From NCBI GenBank assembly GCA_018897155.1, contig JAHILE010000038.1, forward strand, positions 1 to 11,961: 11,961 nt of DNA, written 5' to 3'. Numbering within the stretch: position 1 is the first letter of the stretch; each line of letters opens with the position of its first letter. Shown here one piece after another: positions 1,338 through 9,574 of this stretch. The stretch is from Nanoarchaeota archaeon. GTDB lineage: Archaea > EX4484-52 > LFW-46. The notes beneath the pieces were generated by a model. The model searched no databases. It had not been told where the DNA came from and saw only the letters and a program-made list of their open reading frames with translations. The translations under genes were made by a program, and so were the position numbers.

Positions 1338-2837
1338 TTAAATCATCTTTCCCAATTCTGCGACATTCTCTTTTATCTTGTCCTCAAGCGCGCCAATTTT
1401 TGCGATTATTTCTTTCGGCGGCTCGTATTTGACTTCTTCGTATTCGATTTCCTTGTATTTTGAGATAGAAAGGTCGTATCCGTTTGCCTTTATTTCCGAA
1501 GCAGGCACAAAGAAGCACTTGGCTTTTCTGTCAGTTTGTTTCTCATTCGCGCGGTTTTTGAATCTCTCAATAATGTCTGGAATGTCGCCCTTGCCATCAA
1601 CAAACGTCCGTTTATCATCAAGCGAATACCCGTCTTTGTCCATATCATAGAACCATACTTTATCTGTTTTCCCTCCCTTTGTGAACACAATCACAGCAGT
1701 TGATACTCCAGCATACGGCTTGAACACGCCGGAAGGCATTGAAATAACTGCTTCAAGCTGGCAGTTTTCAAGAATCATCTGCCGCAGTTTTTTGTGCGCA
1801 TTTGAGCTTCCGAACAGAACGCCGTCAGGCACAATTACTCCGCATTGCCCGCCGATAATCAAAAGGTTCATCATCTGCTCGACAAAAAGGAGCTCTGTTT
1901 TTGTTGTATCCAAACTTAAATTGTCGTTAATATCGCTTTTATCAATGCTGCCTTTAAACGGCGGATTTGCAAGGACAATGTCATACTTATTTTTTTCTTC
2001 AAATCTCTTTGAAAGCGTATCCATATAGTCGATATGCGGTGCCTGTATTCCGTGCAAAACCATATTCATAAGCGCAATTCTGACCATTGTGGTGTCAAAT
2101 TCATACCCAAAGAAAGTATTCTTCCACAAAATATCCCAGTGTTTTTTCTCAACAATTTTATCGCCAACAATATTATGCGGCTCGCCTTCTTCGTCATATT
2201 TTATCATGTCGGACGACGTATATTTTGTCAGTATATACTCATACGAATTAATCAAAAATCCTGCTGTGCCGCATGCAGGATCGCATATTTTCTGGCCAAT
2301 ATCCGGATTGACAAGCGCAACCATCATCCTTATTATGTGCCTTGGCGTCCTGAATTGCCCGTTTTTCCCTGCGGTTTTAAGTTCAGACAATAAGTATTCG
2401 TAAATATCTCCCTGAATATCCCTGTTTTGCGCAGTTATGTTCAGCTCGTCAATTATGCTCACTGCTTCCTGTAAAAGCGACGGCTTAGGTATCATAAATA
2501 TTGCGTCTTTCATGTGTTCAGAAAAAAGCGTTTTTTCTCCGTCTCTTACTGTTTTGATAAACGGAAAAACTACGTCCTTTACATGCACCATCATATCCGG
2601 AGCGTTAAAATGCTTCCATTCAGACCATCGGCAGTTTTCATGTCCGACAAATATAGAATTGTATTTTTCTCCTCGCGCTAAAGCTCTTTTTTCGTGTATG
2701 TTATCAAGGTCTTCAAGCCGCTTCATGAAAATAATATAGCTCATCTGCTCTATTGCAGTAAGCGGATTCGTAATTCCTCCGCTCCAGAATCGGTCCCATA
2801 ATTTGTTTATCTTCGCCTTTAATTCGCTTGCAAGCAT
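1338..2837 (-). CDS. hsdM: Type I restriction-modification DNA methyltransferase subunit HsdM
   Basis: N6-adenine DNA methyltransferase subunit of a type I restriction system; it transfers a methyl group from S-adenosylmethionine to adenine in the sequence chosen by HsdS. At 499 residues it has normal length. Residues 1-135 form the helical HsdM N-terminal domain (L-W-D-R-F-W-S-G-G). Q-F-R-T-P at 161-165 begins the N6-MTase domain. Motif I is D-P-A-C-G-T-A-G-F-L at 186-195 and catalytic motif IV is N-P-P-F at 291-294, both intact. The C-terminal Y-D-L-S-I-S-K-Y and the coiled tail from about 465 are usual for HsdS and HsdR contacts. The ATG immediately follows the hsdR TAA, with GGTGGG just upstream as a possible RBS. 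It should be active once it has a specificity subunit; none is in the window. Confidence 0.95.
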   Translation of the reverse strand: MLASELKAKINKLWDRFWSGGITNPLTAIEQMSYIIFMKRLEDLDNIHEKRALARGEKYNSIFVGHENCRWSEWKHFNAPDMMVHVKDVVFPFIKTVRDGEKTLFSEHMKDAIFMIPKPSLLQEAVSIIDELNITAQNRDIQGDIYEYLLSELKTAGKNGQFRTPRHIIRMMVALVNPDIGQKICDPACGTAGFLINSYEYILTKYTSSDMIKYDEEGEPHNIVGDKIVEKKHWDILWKNTFFGYEFDTTMVRIALMNMVLHGIQAPHIDYMDTLSKRFEEKNKYDIVLANPPFKGSIDKSDINDNLSLDTTKTELLFVEQMMNLLIIGGQCGVIVPDGVLFGSSNAHKKLRQMILENCQLEAVISMPSGVFKPYAGVSTAVIVFTKGGKTDKVWFYDMDKDGYSLDDKRTFVDGKGDIPDIIERFKNRANEKQTDRKAKCFFVPASEIKANGYDLSISKYKEIEYEEVKYEPPKEIIAKIGALEDKIKENVAELGKMI

Positions 2838-5732
2838 TTACCCACCCATAAATACATCCTTTTCAAGCCGGTTGCACAGTGTTACCAGCCCTTTTAGCTC
2901 ATCCTTTTCAAACATTGGAATCGGCGCATTGATGCCGAAGTTTATGAATGGCGCATCGAACAAGTCGGAATATTCTATATGCTTCTTCTTTGCAAAAACC
3001 GTCTGTAAAGTTCTTATAAAATTAAGCTGGTCTGCATTGTAAAGCTTGTTGTTCTCAACAAGATGCGTTTCAAACGCTTTTTTTATCTTCACTTCGGGCG
3101 ATTCTTCTTTATAAAGCCCGAGGGTCTCCTTTATGAAATTAACAAAGGTTCCTTTATAGAACTGCTTCAATACATCCTCAGTAAAGTACAATTCCGGACT
3201 GTTCAATGTTTCCTCCAAAGCCCGAACATCTTTTTCAGTAAGTTTCTCATTTGTGAATATCTTCTTTATTGTAGGATGCTCTTTTACAAGCTCTTTTATG
3301 CGCTTATCAACTTTTTCCTTATAGACTTTGACATATTCCTGTTCGGCGTCCGGGCCGAACTCTATTATTTTTCGCTGTTCTACAACATCATCGATATTAA
3401 TAATTATTGGCTCTCTCGGCTCGTCCCTCTTGAACTTCATGAGCTCTGCAAATTCGTCAATAAGCATCTGGGCATCATCAAAACACACATCATTCCAGAA
3501 TTTTTTACTCATCACTTTATCAAGAAGCGCCTCCTTCAGCTTTATTTGATTCAACGTTCTTGGCAGACAATCAAGCATTTTGCAGATTTCGTCCGGAAGC
3601 CGCTCAAGTTCGTTTTCGTTGTTTTTAAGAATTGCAAGCGCAAGCCGTTCTGCTTTTAGCGTAAATGATGCAGCAATTATATTCACATTTTGTTTATACC
3701 GCATTAACGGAGCAATATCTTTTTTTAAGAACTCTATTGGATTAGTTCCGACATTAGTCCATAATTTTGGTGAAAGCGCCTTTTCAACAACCCTTAAATG
3801 TTCGCGGACAGAAACCGAATCTTTGGGAAGAGAATCAACGTCCTCGCTTATTTTTTTCTTCAAAAATTCTGCTCGTCCATCTCCTTTTTTCATCAAGTAT
3901 TCGAGCTGTTCAATACGCATCCTAAAAATCCTGTTTGTAATCGCTTCGCTTGATTCTGTTTGCTCTCCTTCCGGTTTCATGCTGAAGCGCTCAAAATTAT
4001 TCCAGAAGTCAAATATCTTGAAATATTCTTTTTTGCCGTTCGGCAGCCATTCCTTATGTTCGCATGCGCTATTTGCCCGCGTTCCACGCCCAATCATTTG
4101 CCAGAATTTTATTTTTGAGAATACGGGCTTTGCAAACATGAGATTGCACACTTCCGGCACGTCTATTCCCGTATCAAGCATATCTACGGAAATCGCTACT
4201 CTTGGCCATTTATTTTTTTCAAACTCTTCTATGCTGTCCTGCGCTCTTGAATCTTCCGAGACTATTATCCTCGCAAGCTTTGACTTGTATTCGGGATAAA
4301 GCTTCTCAAACGCTTCCCAGATTCTTTTTGCATGTTTTTTCGACATGGCAAAAATTATCGACTTTGCAGGAATCGTGCCGGTTTCATCCGTGAGACAGTG
4401 CTCCATAAATTCTTTGACAAGCGCTTCATTAGTTCCGGTTGTTACGAATTTCTTTTCAAAATCAGTGCCTTCAAAATTTATTTCATCTGGATTCATACCG
4501 CGCTCAAGCATCTCTTTTGTCATATCCTTGCTTAAATCGCCTGTTTTTACGCCCTTTATTTGAAAATGCGTTTGCGCGCCTTGAACTTTGAAATCGCAAA
4601 GAACGCCGTCTTTTATCGCATCCTCATAACTGTAAACCGCAGTCGCCTGCTTTTCGCCGCATTCAAAAAATCGAAATGTATCATGATCAATCATATCCGC
4701 TGGCGTTGCTGTAAGCCCTATTTGCACAGCATCAAAATATGTAAAAACATCCTTCCATTTGTTGTATATTGACCGGTGCGCTTCATCAGAAATTATGAGG
4801 TCAAAATATCCTGGAGAAATTTCTGTGTAGCATTCGCTTAGTGTTTGTATGGTTGATACGTAAAGATTTGCATTTCTATCAATATTTCCAGAATAAATTT
4901 TGGCTTTTGACTCTTCCGGAAAGAATTTCTTGAACCCTTTATTGTATGCTTGGTTTCTCAACGCTTTACGGTCGGCCAAAAATAGTATTTTCTGGGCTTG
5001 TTTTGCCTTCATCATTACGTCTATAATCGACATGGCAACGCGGGTTTTTCCAGTGCCCGTCGCCATTACAATTAACGCTTTTCTATGCCCTTTATCCAAA
5101 TGTTCCAATACTCGCTTAACGCATTCAATGCTCTTTGGGCGGTCGACAATCTCTTTATTTATTGAGATGTTCGATAGTCTCTGGCGATTTTTATTTTGAA
5201 AGATTATCTTTTCAAGATCGCCTCTTGAATAAAATCCCCTTATTTGACGCAATCCTTGATATGGTCTGTTCCAGAACCATATTTCATAGCCATTTGAAAG
5301 AAAAATAAAAACATCTTTTCCGGTTTGCTTCTTTATATCATCCGCATATTGTGCTGCCTGTGTTTGAGCGGTTGCGATAGGATCTTTTGATGTTCTCTTT
5401 GCTTCAATTATGGCTAATGAATCGCCATTTGAATCCAATAAGAGATAATCGGCGTATTTGCTCTCCAAATCATTTTTTAATGTTTCATCAACTGTTTTAT
5501 AATCGCGAATCTTGAAATCAGATTGTTTTGTGTCTACTTCTTCGATTACGTTAATTACCTTCCCATATTGTTCTTTTGATTCGGCAACTGCCATAGTTTT
5601 TTTTAAATCCGCAGATAAGCCAGACACAATGCCAAATTTACGTTTTGGCAGTATCCAATTTTGTTCTCGCAGCATTACATCTATTTTAGAAGATCTTGTC
5701 TGAAATTCGGATAAATGCGCGTCATCAGCCAT
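2838..5732 (-). CDS. hsdR: Type I restriction enzyme motor and nuclease subunit HsdR
   Basis: ATP-driven DNA translocase and endonuclease subunit, 964 residues, EcoEI/EcoAI-like. The N-terminal PD-(D/E)XK nuclease shows D100, then E110-A-K112, followed by Q-A-x-Q-Y-A at about 125-129. The SF2 motor has Walker A A-T-G-T-G-K-T (224-230), Walker B D-E-A-H (316-319), T-A-T-P (341-344), motif V D-T-G-I-D-V-P (520-526) and motif VI Q-M-I-G-R-G-T-R (545-552). The C-terminal third matches the EcoEI_R_C-type helical region that docks on the methyltransferase. All catalytic motifs are intact with no frameshift. It is first in an operon with hsdM and should form R2M2S with a missing S subunit. The start is supported by a TATA box about 26 nt upstream. 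The ATG is at or next to the expected transcript start, so translation is probably leaderless. Confidence 0.95.
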   Translation of the reverse strand: MADDAHLSEFQTRSSKIDVMLREQNWILPKRKFGIVSGLSADLKKTMAVAESKEQYGKVINVIEEVDTKQSDFKIRDYKTVDETLKNDLESKYADYLLLDSNGDSLAIIEAKRTSKDPIATAQTQAAQYADDIKKQTGKDVFIFLSNGYEIWFWNRPYQGLRQIRGFYSRGDLEKIIFQNKNRQRLSNISINKEIVDRPKSIECVKRVLEHLDKGHRKALIVMATGTGKTRVAMSIIDVMMKAKQAQKILFLADRKALRNQAYNKGFKKFFPEESKAKIYSGNIDRNANLYVSTIQTLSECYTEISPGYFDLIISDEAHRSIYNKWKDVFTYFDAVQIGLTATPADMIDHDTFRFFECGEKQATAVYSYEDAIKDGVLCDFKVQGAQTHFQIKGVKTGDLSKDMTKEMLERGMNPDEINFEGTDFEKKFVTTGTNEALVKEFMEHCLTDETGTIPAKSIIFAMSKKHAKRIWEAFEKLYPEYKSKLARIIVSEDSRAQDSIEEFEKNKWPRVAISVDMLDTGIDVPEVCNLMFAKPVFSKIKFWQMIGRGTRANSACEHKEWLPNGKKEYFKIFDFWNNFERFSMKPEGEQTESSEAITNRIFRMRIEQLEYLMKKGDGRAEFLKKKISEDVDSLPKDSVSVREHLRVVEKALSPKLWTNVGTNPIEFLKKDIAPLMRYKQNVNIIAASFTLKAERLALAILKNNENELERLPDEICKMLDCLPRTLNQIKLKEALLDKVMSKKFWNDVCFDDAQMLIDEFAELMKFKRDEPREPIIINIDDVVEQRKIIEFGPDAEQEYVKVYKEKVDKRIKELVKEHPTIKKIFTNEKLTEKDVRALEETLNSPELYFTEDVLKQFYKGTFVNFIKETLGLYKEESPEVKIKKAFETHLVENNKLYNADQLNFIRTLQTVFAKKKHIEYSDLFDAPFINFGINAPIPMFEKDELKGLVTLCNRLEKDVFMGG

Positions 5733-6009: not shown

Positions 6010-7533
6010 TTATGATTGCTTTTGAAGATGGTTTTTTACAACTACAATCTCCGCATTTTCAGGTTTGAGCCCAGCCCATTTTATCTTATATCCGAGCGCG
6101 CCAAGCACCTCACTATGCCCTTTCACGCCGTATTTTTCAAAAACTTTTAGCGTGTCGGGATAGTTTTTTATGAATTCCAAATCATCCCGTATCGCATCTA
6201 TTGTTTTCTGGCTGACAAGTTGGGTTTGAAAAAGCAGGTATCCTTCATGTTTTTTCTTCGTCTTCAGAATTTCATACAGGGCTTTCGCGCTGATTTTATA
6301 GGTTTCGGCAATTTTGGCGATACTGATAACGTCACCCTCCAGCGAAATTTCAATATCCTTCAGTGAATTTATTTCCGATGCTAATTGCTTTTCCTCATAA
6401 GCATTCAGAACTTTGGCTATTTCCGAATACGGGATCTTTTTGTCAAAGAAAATAACATTTCCTGAATTTATTTTGAATTCAGTGATGGAACACGCAAGGT
6501 TTTTGTCAACCAAAAGCATCAAAGTCTCTTTAACCTGATTGACCTTTTGTATTTTCTTTTGCAAATATTCTGGCGTCCAGAAACCGACAATTTCAACGTA
6601 TATTTTTGTGGCGCTATTTTCAATTAAGAAATCTGGGATAAATGCGTACTGGCCTGCTTTCAATACCGCAGGCTCTCGTTTAACATTCCAGCCGCCGAAG
6701 TCGTGGCGCGCGAATTCTTCTTCAATGGCGCTATCGAATATGTTGTCTGAATAATCATTTGTGTTGAAAATCTTCTTTGTGTCGTCCAGCGCAAATTCAA
6801 AAATCCTCTTGTCGCCATAAGACCTTTTCATGACACTTGCATTTATACTCCATTTATCCGCCCGCATAATCTCAGGAAGGAGCTTTGCAAGCGATGTTCC
6901 GTATCGCTCGGTCATCTTGAATAATGATAGCGCGCCGTCCAGAAACACAGTATCATTCTCAATATTGTAGATGAGCCCGAGCCGCTTTATCTTTCGGAAC
7001 ACATTTTGGAAATTACCTTCTATTTTAAATTCCAGCCCAGTGGCTTTGAAAAGCAAGGTCTGCACAAGCGAGAGGTTGTATTGCCGAAGCAGGTTCTCGG
7101 CAGTTATCGGCTCAAACTCTTTTACAATCAGGTTTTCTTCATAGTCTGCCCACAATGTATTTTCCAATTGTTCGGAGGTAATTGAAAGCTTTTTCGCTGC
7201 TGAATCGATGGCTCTTTGCCGCTCATCCGCAAGCGCCATACCGCGGCACTCGTCAAATACTGCCTTGCGCGCGACAGACGGCTCGACAATAGAATCCTGC
7301 TCAATTACACATCGCCGCTCAAGAAGCTGAATCCATCCGCGGATGAGGCGGAAATTCATTTCCTCAAAGCTTTTTGTCTCTTCAATAAGTGAGCCGTATG
7401 TTTTCCCGACATTTCTCATGAATATATCGATAATTGCCTCTGCAAGCTCCATATTCTCCGGAGTTATGGCTGCATACACCGGTTCAATCTTCCCTTTGTA
7501 CGTCCTTGCAACTAATAAGTCTCCTGTTAACAT
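6010..7533 (-). CDS. bax1: Bax1-type nuclease (DUF790), XPB partner
   Basis: A 507-residue archaeal nuclease that works with XPB, the pair acting as a helicase-nuclease in DNA repair. The N-terminus M-L-T-G-D-L-L-V-A-R is typical of DUF790 and supports this start. The nuclease core is recognisable: P300-D301 (I-P-D-F), then V-E-I-V-G-F-W at 313-319 with E314, and K326/K327 further on, a PD-(D/E)XK arrangement. Residues about 395-507 add a C-terminal region with helix-turn-helix-like V-I-S-I-A-K-I-A-E-T-Y-K-I-S, perhaps for DNA contact. This makes it somewhat long for the family as I recall it. It starts 4 nt after the xpb stop, with GGGTGATG before the ATG as a possible RBS, so it is surely co-transcribed with xpb. 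It is intact. Confidence 0.92.
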   Translation of the reverse strand: MLTGDLLVARTYKGKIEPVYAAITPENMELAEAIIDIFMRNVGKTYGSLIEETKSFEEMNFRLIRGWIQLLERRCVIEQDSIVEPSVARKAVFDECRGMALADERQRAIDSAAKKLSITSEQLENTLWADYEENLIVKEFEPITAENLLRQYNLSLVQTLLFKATGLEFKIEGNFQNVFRKIKRLGLIYNIENDTVFLDGALSLFKMTERYGTSLAKLLPEIMRADKWSINASVMKRSYGDKRIFEFALDDTKKIFNTNDYSDNIFDSAIEEEFARHDFGGWNVKREPAVLKAGQYAFIPDFLIENSATKIYVEIVGFWTPEYLQKKIQKVNQVKETLMLLVDKNLACSITEFKINSGNVIFFDKKIPYSEIAKVLNAYEEKQLASEINSLKDIEISLEGDVISIAKIAETYKISAKALYEILKTKKKHEGYLLFQTQLVSQKTIDAIRDDLEFIKNYPDTLKVFEKYGVKGHSEVLGALGYKIKWAGLKPENAEIVVVKNHLQKQS

Positions 7534-7537
7534 TACA

Positions 7538-8878
7538 TCACCCGATTGATTTTTTTCTCCTGCTTGATGCGCCCACTTCGCTTGTTTCGCGCGACACTAT
7601 TTCATACAATATCGCTTCCTTGCCTTCCCTTTTCCGCAATATGCGCCCGAGCCTCTGCACAAAAGCCCGCGCGCTTCCTGTTCCGCTCAGTATCACGCCG
7701 ACATTGGCATCGGGAACATCAATTCCTTCATCAAGAACTTTTGAAGTGACGATTGCCCTGTATGCGCCGGATTTGAATCCGCCAAGAATCTGCTCCCTTT
7801 CTTTGCCTCCTGTTCTATAGGTTATCGAAGGTATCAGGAACCTGTTTGAGATTATGTGAACCAATTTGTTATGCTCTGTGAAAATAAATATCCGTGCCTC
7901 TTTATGCTCGTTCAGGATTTCCGCAAGCTTTTCGATTTTTGAAGCGCTGTTAAGCGAAATGTCGCGTGCCTTGTTCCGTGCAAGCAATGCCCTGCGCGCA
8001 TTCGGGTCTCGTCCGCTTCGCATCACAAGCTTCTGGAAATCCGCAGCACCTCTTAGGCGGATGTTGCTTTTTTTTAAGTAATCGGCAAACACTTCTTTGT
8101 TTTTGTTGTATTCTTCCCTTTCTTCGCGGACGAGCTCAACCGCAACTTTTCTGAGCGCATACGGCGATAGATGCGTGCCTGAAAGCTCTTTCACATTCAT
8201 CTCAAAAACCTTGCCGCCAAGAATGCGGTTAAGTTCCGAATGCAGGCCGTCGTCTCTTTCGTAAGTTGCGGTCAGGCCCATGCGGAACGGTGCGGCAAAC
8301 ATCTCGGCTATCTGCCTGTAGCCCTCTGCGGGCAGGTGATGCACTTCGTCAAAAATCAGGAAACCAAACCTGTTTCCGAGATAGCCTGCATGAATATATG
8401 CTGAATCATAAGTAGAGACAGTTATCGCCTTTATGTCCTGCTCGCCGCCGCCAAGCATTCCTATTTCGGTGTTAAATGCCTCTTTTAGCTTGGCGCGCCA
8501 CTGGTAAACCAAATCAAGGGTCGGACATATTACTAAAACAGGGGTGTTCAGAAGTGCAATCGCTTTTATGCCGATAATTGTCTTGCCGCTTCCTGTGGGA
8601 AGCACGATTACTCCGCGCTTGCCATTAAGTTCCCATGCATCCAATGCCTGCTTTTGGTAATCGCGAAGAGTTACATTTGCCTGAAGTTCCGGGCACGGGA
8701 TGAAGTCAAGGGCGTAGTCCGCGAAATTAATCTTTGATGCCGCCAGGTAATCAATGATGTCTTTGTAATGCATAGCCATGGCGCGGAAGCTTTGGGCGCG
8801 CTCATCCCAGGTAGAATTAGGCACTTTGACACCTCTAACAAGGATTGTTCCTTTGTCAAATCTCAAAGCGATTTCCAT
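7538..8878 (-). CDS. xpb: XPB/Rad25 family DNA repair helicase
   Basis: A 446-residue SF2 3'-5' helicase of the archaeal XPB family. Residues 1-60 match the damage-recognition domain. Walker A is L-P-T-G-S-G-K-T (93-100), Walker B D-E-V-H (177-180), T-A-T at 203-205, motif V V-L-D-E-G-I-D-V-P (381-389) and motif VI Q-R-L-G-R-I-L-R (408-415). The family's R-E-D motif reads R-D-D at 208-210, a conservative change. The open frame extends 33 codons further to a TTG at 8977. I chose the ATG at 8878 because known archaeal XPBs begin with this M-E-I-like strand and a TATA-like element lies about 26 nt upstream. The extra segment has no family resemblance. It is first in a two-gene operon with bax1. 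Confidence 0.92.
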   Translation of the reverse strand: MEIALRFDKGTILVRGVKVPNSTWDERAQSFRAMAMHYKDIIDYLAASKINFADYALDFIPCPELQANVTLRDYQKQALDAWELNGKRGVIVLPTGSGKTIIGIKAIALLNTPVLVICPTLDLVYQWRAKLKEAFNTEIGMLGGGEQDIKAITVSTYDSAYIHAGYLGNRFGFLIFDEVHHLPAEGYRQIAEMFAAPFRMGLTATYERDDGLHSELNRILGGKVFEMNVKELSGTHLSPYALRKVAVELVREEREEYNKNKEVFADYLKKSNIRLRGAADFQKLVMRSGRDPNARRALLARNKARDISLNSASKIEKLAEILNEHKEARIFIFTEHNKLVHIISNRFLIPSITYRTGGKEREQILGGFKSGAYRAIVTSKVLDEGIDVPDANVGVILSGTGSARAFVQRLGRILRKREGKEAILYEIVSRETSEVGASSRRKKSIG

Positions 8879-8898
8879 GAGTATTGTTCGGCGCGCAA

Positions 8899-8911
8899 AG
8901 TAAAAAGTTTG
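8899..8911 (-). promoter_or_regulatory. Candidate TATA element of xpb-bax1
   Basis: Minus-strand CAAACTTTTTACT is centred about 26 nt before the xpb ATG at 8878. It is a weak TATA (CTTTTTA) with an A-rich BRE-like upstream part. The spacing fits a leaderless transcript and is part of the reason for preferring the ATG over the upstream TTG. The remaining bases up to 9069 hold no gene or RNA that I can recognise. Confidence 0.4.
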
Positions 8912-9083
8912 ACGGCGATTAGAATGCGTGAAAATCTTATTTGTTTCGTAAGGGATGCATTCGCTCAATAATATCAAATCCCATTAACGAACCCCCTGTC
9001 AAAGCTTAAGAGGTGCGCCAAATTAACCACTTACTGCAGTTATTGTCCAAATCGGAAGGGAAATTTCTATCCCGCTGGCCGGA

Positions 9084-9126
9084 TTTTCAGATGCAACGCG
9101 CCATAAAACTTCTGCGCATTGCATGA
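9084..9126 (-). other. Intron 2 of tRNA-Tyr, T-loop position about 59/60, 43 nt
   Basis: The fold is a near-perfect bulge-helix-bulge. The T-stem GCCGG/CCGGC is the outer helix. TTCA of the T-loop pairs with TGAA (9089-9086) as the 4-bp central helix. The bulges are ATT (9128-9126) and AAT (9085-9083). An inner 11-bp stem, ATGCAATGCGC with GCGCGTTGCAT, has one G-U pair and a C-C mismatch at its base. Canonical cuts leave T-loop TTCAATT. A cut one or two bases away would give TTCAAAT, so the borders could shift slightly. Confidence 0.85.
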
Positions 9127-9148
9127 ATTGAACCGGCAACATCACGGT

Positions 9149-9271
9149 AGCTGAAACTTTGCCTGACTTCTATGTTTGAGTACGGGCTAAACCGGAAAAC
9201 GACATGAAAATCCTTGTGGATTTTCAAGTTTTTCAGGTCTCCTTGCAGAACCTGAAAATGCAGTTCTCCTT
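9149..9271 (-). other. Intron 1 of tRNA-Tyr, at position 37/38, 123 nt
   Basis: The anticodon stem is the outer helix. CTG of the anticodon loop pairs with CAG (9153-9151) near the intron end, extended by a U-U pair. The two 3-nt bulges, AG|A and CT|A, give the canonical cuts after G37 and before A38. The bulge-helix-bulge is therefore slightly relaxed, with three Watson-Crick pairs. Inside are two strong hairpins: TTTTCAGG/CCTGAAAA (9258-9251 with 9237-9230) and TGAAAATCC/GGATTTTCA (9226-9218 with 9213-9205). It is long for an archaeal tRNA intron and holds no open frame of note. Confidence 0.85.
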
Positions 9272-9296
9272 CTACAGCCGTGCACTCTACCGGGTT

Positions 9297-9310
9297 GAGT
9301 TACAGCGGGA
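9297..9310 (-). repeat. 5' end of tRNA-Tyr, direct repeat copy 2
   Basis: TCCCGCTGTAACTC, the first bases of the functional tRNA, recurs with one mismatch 232 bp upstream. Here the acceptor strand pairs perfectly with the tRNA 3' end, so this is the working copy. Confidence 0.75.
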
Positions 9311-9541
9311 TATTATGAATTCGCTATGCTTGACTGGTGGCTTGCGCGTCAGCGCAAACCGCCCTAAATCATGGCACTAACGTGCCAAGCTTTTTTGTCT
9401 CTTTCGAGCCAAAAAACACCGGCCGATTTTGGGATTTTAGGGTTCTTTCGCTTGCGCTCTAGACTTTTTCAGCTTCGCTGAAAAATTCCCGAAAGCTTGG
9501 AAACCGCAGTTTCCATGATTATGCGGCCGAGTTACATCGGG
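9310..9541 (-). other. Hairpin-rich non-coding segment upstream of tRNA-Tyr
   Basis: No coding frame is credible here, yet the segment is packed with exact hairpins on the minus strand. They are TGGAAAC/GTTTCCA (9515-9498), TTTTTCAGC/GCTGAAAAA (9485-9465), a GAAA-capped stem TTTTTTG-CTC/GAG-CAAAAAA (9416-9391), TGGCAC/GTGCCA (9387-9372) and GGTTTGCGC/GCGCAAGCC (9360-9339). Longer-range matches also exist: CCCTAAA (9442-9436) with TTTAGGG (9368-9362), and CCAAGCTTT (9500-9492) with AAAGCTTGG (9393-9385). A consensus TATA box ends about 26 nt before its first base. It could be an unrecognised structured RNA, a long tRNA leader, or a decayed tRNA-Tyr copy. I looked for RNase P and SRP RNA signatures and did not find them. 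Confidence 0.5.
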
Positions 9542-9566: not shown

Positions 9567-9574
9567 TATATAAA
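9567..9574 (-). promoter_or_regulatory. Consensus TATA box for the RNA region
   Basis: Minus-strand TTTATATA matches the archaeal TATA consensus exactly. Its centre is about 28 nt upstream of the first tRNA-like 5' copy at 9542. No protein gene starts downstream on the minus strand before xpb, so it most likely drives the structured segment and tRNA-Tyr as one transcript. The element is nearly symmetrical, and plus-strand use cannot be excluded. Confidence 0.65.

Follow-up and report, generated by a model that had tools for sequence, protein, structure and literature searches.

A tRNA-Tyr gene with anticodon-loop and T-loop introns in a DPANN-like archaeal lineage whose EndA lacks the catalytic lysine

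The interrupted tRNA-Tyr gene

The window, a stretch of 11,961 nucleotides from a contig of a Nanoarchaeota archaeon (JAHILE010000038.1), carries on its minus strand the separated pieces of a tRNA-Tyr, and raises the question of whether a gene interrupted in both the anticodon loop and the T-loop might be the working copy of its genome, and if so, by what means its transcript might be spliced. Joining positions 9309-9272, 9148-9127 and 9083-9070 yields a 74-nt tRNA-Tyr(GUA). Its first exon (9272..9309; tRNA positions 1-37, CCCGCTGTAACTCAACCCGGTAGAGTGCACGGCTGTAG) was delimited by reading the sequence and by ARAGORN after splicing. A canonical 37/38 intron of 123 nt (9149..9271), likewise placed by ARAGORN and present at this position also in 12 relatives, separates it from the second exon (9127..9148), which extends from position 38 to position 59 of the T-loop. 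A further intron of 43 nt at 59/60 (9084..9126) is followed by the third exon (9070..9083) with U60, the 3' strands of the T-stem and acceptor stem, and the discriminator A73. The 123-nt intron contains hairpin repeats of the genome, and its part 37-69 recurs elsewhere. In the joined molecule, the four stems consist of Watson-Crick pairs alone (7/7 in the acceptor, C1-G72 included, 4/4 in the D-arm, and 5/5 each in the anticodon and T-arms), and the 7-nt T-loop reads UUCAAUU.

ARAGORN made no tRNA call in the raw window, even with introns of up to 3 kb allowed; with the 43 nt cut out it called tRNA-Tyr(gta) and located the 123-nt intron unaided, and precise excision of both introns gave a sound tRNA. 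The Rfam tRNA model did not report the locus either, be it in the window or in the genome at E values up to 10. A sequence-only reading of this DNA had proposed the two introns with their coordinates, the T-loop site and the perfect helices, all of which are borne out by the sequence and by ARAGORN; its further suggestion that ordinary finders may miss the gene proved apt for both programs as far as the unspliced locus is concerned. An Rfam match to rdlD over the T-arm was dismissed as a chance hit (E 0.06, below the gathering score).

The T-loop intron presents the elements of the archaeal bulge-helix-bulge (BHB) motif: an outer helix, a 4-bp centre, two 3-nt bulges and an inner helix. The outer helix is the T-stem itself (9137-9133/9082-9078, 5/5 pairs), and the central helix is formed by U54-A57 (UUCA, 9132-9129) with the UGAA of the intron (9089-9086, 4/4 pairs). 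The 5' bulge is A9128-U9127^U9126 and the 3' bulge A9085-A9084^U9083. A C.C mismatch stands between the 5' bulge and the 11-bp inner helix (9124-9114/9101-9091), and hence the motif is slightly relaxed on its 5' side. Thus, the BHB that had been proposed is exact in its T-stem/CCGGC and UUCA/UGAA pairings and its AA^U bulge, but is not fully strict in view of the mismatch after AU^U. A competing register that uses the intron's own UUCA is better by 0.4 kcal/mol (-25.6 versus -25.2 kcal/mol for the BHB), and the BHB register has a probability of only ~0.15 in isolation. As the two registers are thus about equal in energy, the folding energy alone is no proof of the motif; the case for it is built on recurrence and comparison.

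The genome (1.43 Mb, about 96% complete) is a fragmented, metagenome-like assembly of 62 contigs. The initial reading had held that an uninterrupted tRNA-Tyr elsewhere in it would count against its proposal; neither the Rfam tRNA model nor a covariance model built for Tyr (R1) nor a D-arm/anticodon pattern allowing 3 mismatches returned another tRNA-Tyr from it. Elsewhere in the phylum a tRNA-Tyr was readable in 12 genomes; the 37/38 intron is present in 12/12 and the T-loop is intact in 12/12, and the T-loop intron is thus a lineage-specific gain. The tRNA-Tyr of the congener G001 was not found by the Tyr covariance model or the D-arm/anticodon pattern; three short-pattern matches in that genome were rejected as not being tRNAs.

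T-loop introns and a mobile repeat

By re-reading weak tRNA matches and the copies of one repeat (see below), we located introns at 59/60 in twelve tRNA genes of this genome, namely those for Tyr, Ala-CGC, Ser-GCT, Ile-GAT, Thr-GGT, Asp-GTC, a Leu, Pro-CGG, Pro-GGG, Arg-CCT, Arg-TCG and Gln-CTG. They amount to about a third of the ~33 tRNA genes identified by eye from search hits in a partial census, and range from 20 to 160 nt in length. A further twelve genes with 59/60 introns were found in G001, the one congener available. All 24 introns share a single geometry, with the T-stem as the outer helix and the UUCR of the T-loop as half of the central helix. Among the 17 scored, the T-stem pairs 5/5 in every case, and the match of positions 54-57 to the intron is full (4/4) in 13 and one pair short (3/4) in four, compared with 1.7% of random 4-mers achieving 4/4; in most the inner helix is in strict register, making them strict BHBs. 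Hence, the geometry of the tRNA-Tyr T-loop is no chance event, as it recurs in 11 other tRNAs here and 12 in the congener. ARAGORN called 0/17 of the first genes tested when unspliced and 15/17 when spliced, 14 of these with the expected isotype; seven more were added to this set. The spliced Arg-TCG gene, which also carries a canonical intron, was miscalled; the Leu and Pro-CGG genes contain additional introns beyond that at 59/60. The T-loop of tRNA-Ile has a 113-nt insert here and is empty in G001 (GGGAGTTCAAATCTCCC), as is that of tRNA-Arg(TCG), which holds a 41-nt insert here. Non-canonical introns also occur in the D-arm, as observed in the initiator tRNA-Met (L015), tRNA-Val(CAC) (L017), a tRNA-Gly (L117) and a tRNA-Leu (L128).

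These observations bear on whether the tRNA-Tyr locus is functional. The fragmentation and incompleteness of the assembly leave room for a disrupted pseudogene whose intact counterpart lies outside the assembled contigs; however, every helix is intact across both interruptions, the like interruption of the T-loop in 11 other tRNAs extends to those for Ile and Asp, of which one copy each was found, and the searches recovered no other Tyr gene. We accordingly consider a pseudogene very improbable. An assembly artefact, of the kind that a metagenome-like set of 62 contigs might harbor, is scarcely credible given that the separately assembled congener has the same class of insert at the same site in its Ala, Ser, Asp and Pro tRNAs. 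In all probability, then, the tRNA-Tyr(GUA) gene at this locus is the one that the genome uses, and its two interruptions are introns of the BHB type. We infer that it is transcribed, cut and ligated in vivo, with the EndA described below as the splicing enzyme.

One repeat of ~110 nt is present in 8/12 of the T-loop introns here and in 9/12 of those in G001. It is inverted in tRNA-Ser(GCU) of both genomes, and in G001 a tRNA-Ser(CGA) has one copy in its anticodon loop. Four solitary copies (L179, L181, L182, L184; TAATNCGG) begin a few bases past the TAA stop codon of a protein-coding gene, in the context TAAT(T/A/G)CGG, and these might represent a 3'-end element. Strong matches to the repeat are confined to the genus of this archaeon, and it has no credible Rfam match of its own. 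Its core (L126-L131, L157-L185; alignment A3) comprises a pyrimidine tract, the complement of this tract, which closes a hairpin, and a second purine tract that mirrors the first. This triplex-like relation is kept across subfamilies with different tracts. The 43-nt intron of tRNA-Tyr lies outside this family; no relatives of it were found among the loci compared, and its junction 22-mer is absent in viral contigs.

A second dispersed repeat with CCGCATAATC-type ends lies just upstream of tRNA-Tyr at 9360-9428 (within 9310-9524). It recurs over 69 nt with 98.6% identity beside tRNA-Val (L008) and over 58 nt with 98.3% identity inside the intron of tRNA-Gly(CCC) (L023), and is a second mobile family that serves also as a canonical intron. 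As a TATA-like TTTATATA is seen near 9573, this repeat may separate the promoter from tRNA-Tyr. Elsewhere in the window, the type I restriction-modification genes hsdM and hsdR (1338-5732) are found alongside genes for a DUF1828 protein (39-821) and an unknown 153-aa protein (822-1283), with no specificity subunit seen within the window. An XPB-like helicase adjoins a DUF790 (Bax1-type) nuclease at 6010-8977; the two are the usual archaeal pair.

The shared geometry suggests how the T-loop introns might be removed. In the tRNA-Tyr precursor, the T-stem would act as the outer helix and U54-U55-C56-A57 would pair with the UGAA of the intron, leaving the 3-nt bulges. EndA would then cut after A57-A58-U59 and before U60, and RtcB, of which one was found in the genome, would join the exons to restore the 7-nt T-loop. 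Since no tRNA is without a T-stem and UUCR, closing upon itself and ending in (U/C)GAA-NN should suffice to make an insert spliceable from any T-loop. Thus, each T-arm constitutes half a BHB, offering a simple structural reason for the 59/60 site, which the lineage appears to have exploited repeatedly, chiefly through copies of one mobile repeat. With the outer helix and one half of the central one coming from any T-arm, the preference for the T-loop can be explained without a broad-specificity enzyme. The earlier contention that T-arm introns need such an enzyme is likewise at odds with most of the T-loop introns here being strict BHBs.

The splicing endonuclease

We searched 34 genomes of the phylum with the PF01974 profile at E values up to 10 and recovered EndA in 27, each with only one match above the cut-off, including 7/7 of the genomes that are at least 90% complete; the present genome has a single EndA (C48). 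No credible second copy was detected by this profile in any of the 34 genomes. A few weak second matches were dismissed, being tiny and mostly containing in-frame stops. The complete copies (open frames of 187-290 aa) consist of one N-domain and one C-domain. Hence, they are not of the three-unit, about 390-aa build of the ARMAN epsilon2 enzymes and correspond instead to the alpha-type, i.e., a single N- plus C-domain unit with an MJ-like fold. By both sequence and model the best match is the M. jannaschii (MJ) alpha subunit (1a79; Z 19.6 over 167 residues, 35% identity). The expectation of the sequence-only reading that the host would carry an alpha-beta or epsilon enzyme is thus not supported by copy number, domains or fold.

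It is conceivable that the introns are instead removed by an alpha-beta heteromer with a beta subunit too diverged to detect: intron-rich genomes usually have heteromeric enzymes (PMC4090602), and the tRNA-Tyr T-loop motif is slightly relaxed. Given that so permissive a profile search yielded no credible second copy across the phylum and that most of the T-loop motifs are strict, we view this as rather unlikely.

The Tyr-His-Lys triad of the alpha-type enzymes is incomplete in these proteins. The Tyr and His are kept, but the catalytic Lys (MJ K156, ARMAN-2 K282) is replaced by Ala in 22/27 and by Ser in 5/27, at a position where the alignment with the MJ enzyme is ungapped. An Ala in place of this Lys abolishes activity in the ARMAN-2 and A. 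fulgidus enzymes (PMC12397907), and its loss in all 27 genomes might mean that EndA is merely a binding or otherwise non-catalytic subunit with another nuclease doing the cutting. We find this decidedly unlikely, as the EndAs of the phylum show little or no variation at the catalytic Tyr and His, at the Arg that grips the bulge and at the GFKFG Lys, no other candidate nuclease is known, and the tRNAs of these genomes rely on splicing.

Two insertions are of interest in this regard. The first, of ~5 residues, FGKW(I/V)EEEK (more generally FGK(W/Y/F/I)...), lies in the position that the CSL/ASL loops take in broad-specificity enzymes and is shorter than these, with the Lys of FGK being invariant; the second, of ~7 residues, NPYKxGxK, lies between the Tyr and the His. 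Loop lysines have been raised as possible catalytic residues (PMC12397907), and perhaps one of those here substitutes for the missing Lys, which gives that suggestion the form of a concrete hypothesis. The AlphaFold model of EndA (mean pLDDT 68, below 50 in the loop around 172-178) is too weak to place a Lys facing the active site. The broad-specificity idea finds some echo in a Lys-bearing insertion at the CSL/ASL place, but is not supported as to the enzyme type.

Taken together, these observations suggest a picture that we would hold with about even confidence: pre-tRNA splicing in a small phylum of archaea is carried out by an EndA minus its catalytic Lys, whose function might have been taken over by loop lysines (FGK or NPYKxGxK), and a mobile repeat serves one genus as a plug-in T-loop intron, with the universal T-arm giving half of the motif; this repeat also settles in either orientation, in an anticodon loop and behind stop codons. 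Because the catalytic Lys has been lost naturally in every enzyme seen, what it and the loop lysines do can be put to the test. More practically, annotations of such genomes will miss many tRNA genes.

Relationship to known systems

The BHB splice site is transplantable, and accordingly tRNA introns occur at many positions including 59/60 (PMC4090602). As introns at 59/60 are already listed for archaea there, the tRNA-Tyr T-loop intron is of a known kind. Reviews hold that relaxed introns are efficiently removed only by heteromeric or epsilon EndA, and that hosts of alpha4 or alpha2 enzymes have few introns, all at 37/38 (PMC6379350, PMC4090602). The present lineage breaks this correlation of EndA type with introns, for it is intron-rich, with multiple sites in its tRNAs, and has one alpha-type unit.

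In the Thermoproteales, non-canonical tRNA introns, including those at 59/60, and intron transposition have been described (Sugahara 2008, Fujishima 2010, as cited in PMC4033280 and PMC4090602). Going by these citing accounts, the two groups share BHB introns at various sites, 59/60 among them, several introns per gene, and closely similar introns across different tRNAs. On the same accounts, our host differs in belonging to another phylum (DPANN-like), in its T-loop focus and in its single alpha-type EndA unit, as well as in having a repeat that is also found inverted, in the anticodon loop, and solitary past stop codons. Similarly, the ARMAN-2 epsilon2 EndA (PMC12397907) comes from a DPANN host with scattered tRNA introns and bears a Lys-containing insertion at the corresponding place; in contrast to it, the enzyme here is no three-unit fusion, has Ala or Ser at the Lys282 equivalent, and has a shorter loop. 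With the M. jannaschii alpha4 enzyme (1a79) it shares the two-domain build of the single unit; it differs in the missing catalytic Lys and in possessing the FGKW(I/V)EEEK and NPYKxGxK insertions. Introns at 59/60 and the transposition of introns are both known from Thermoproteales, whereas the lineage, the Lys-less alpha-type EndA and the mobile T-loop intron are new.
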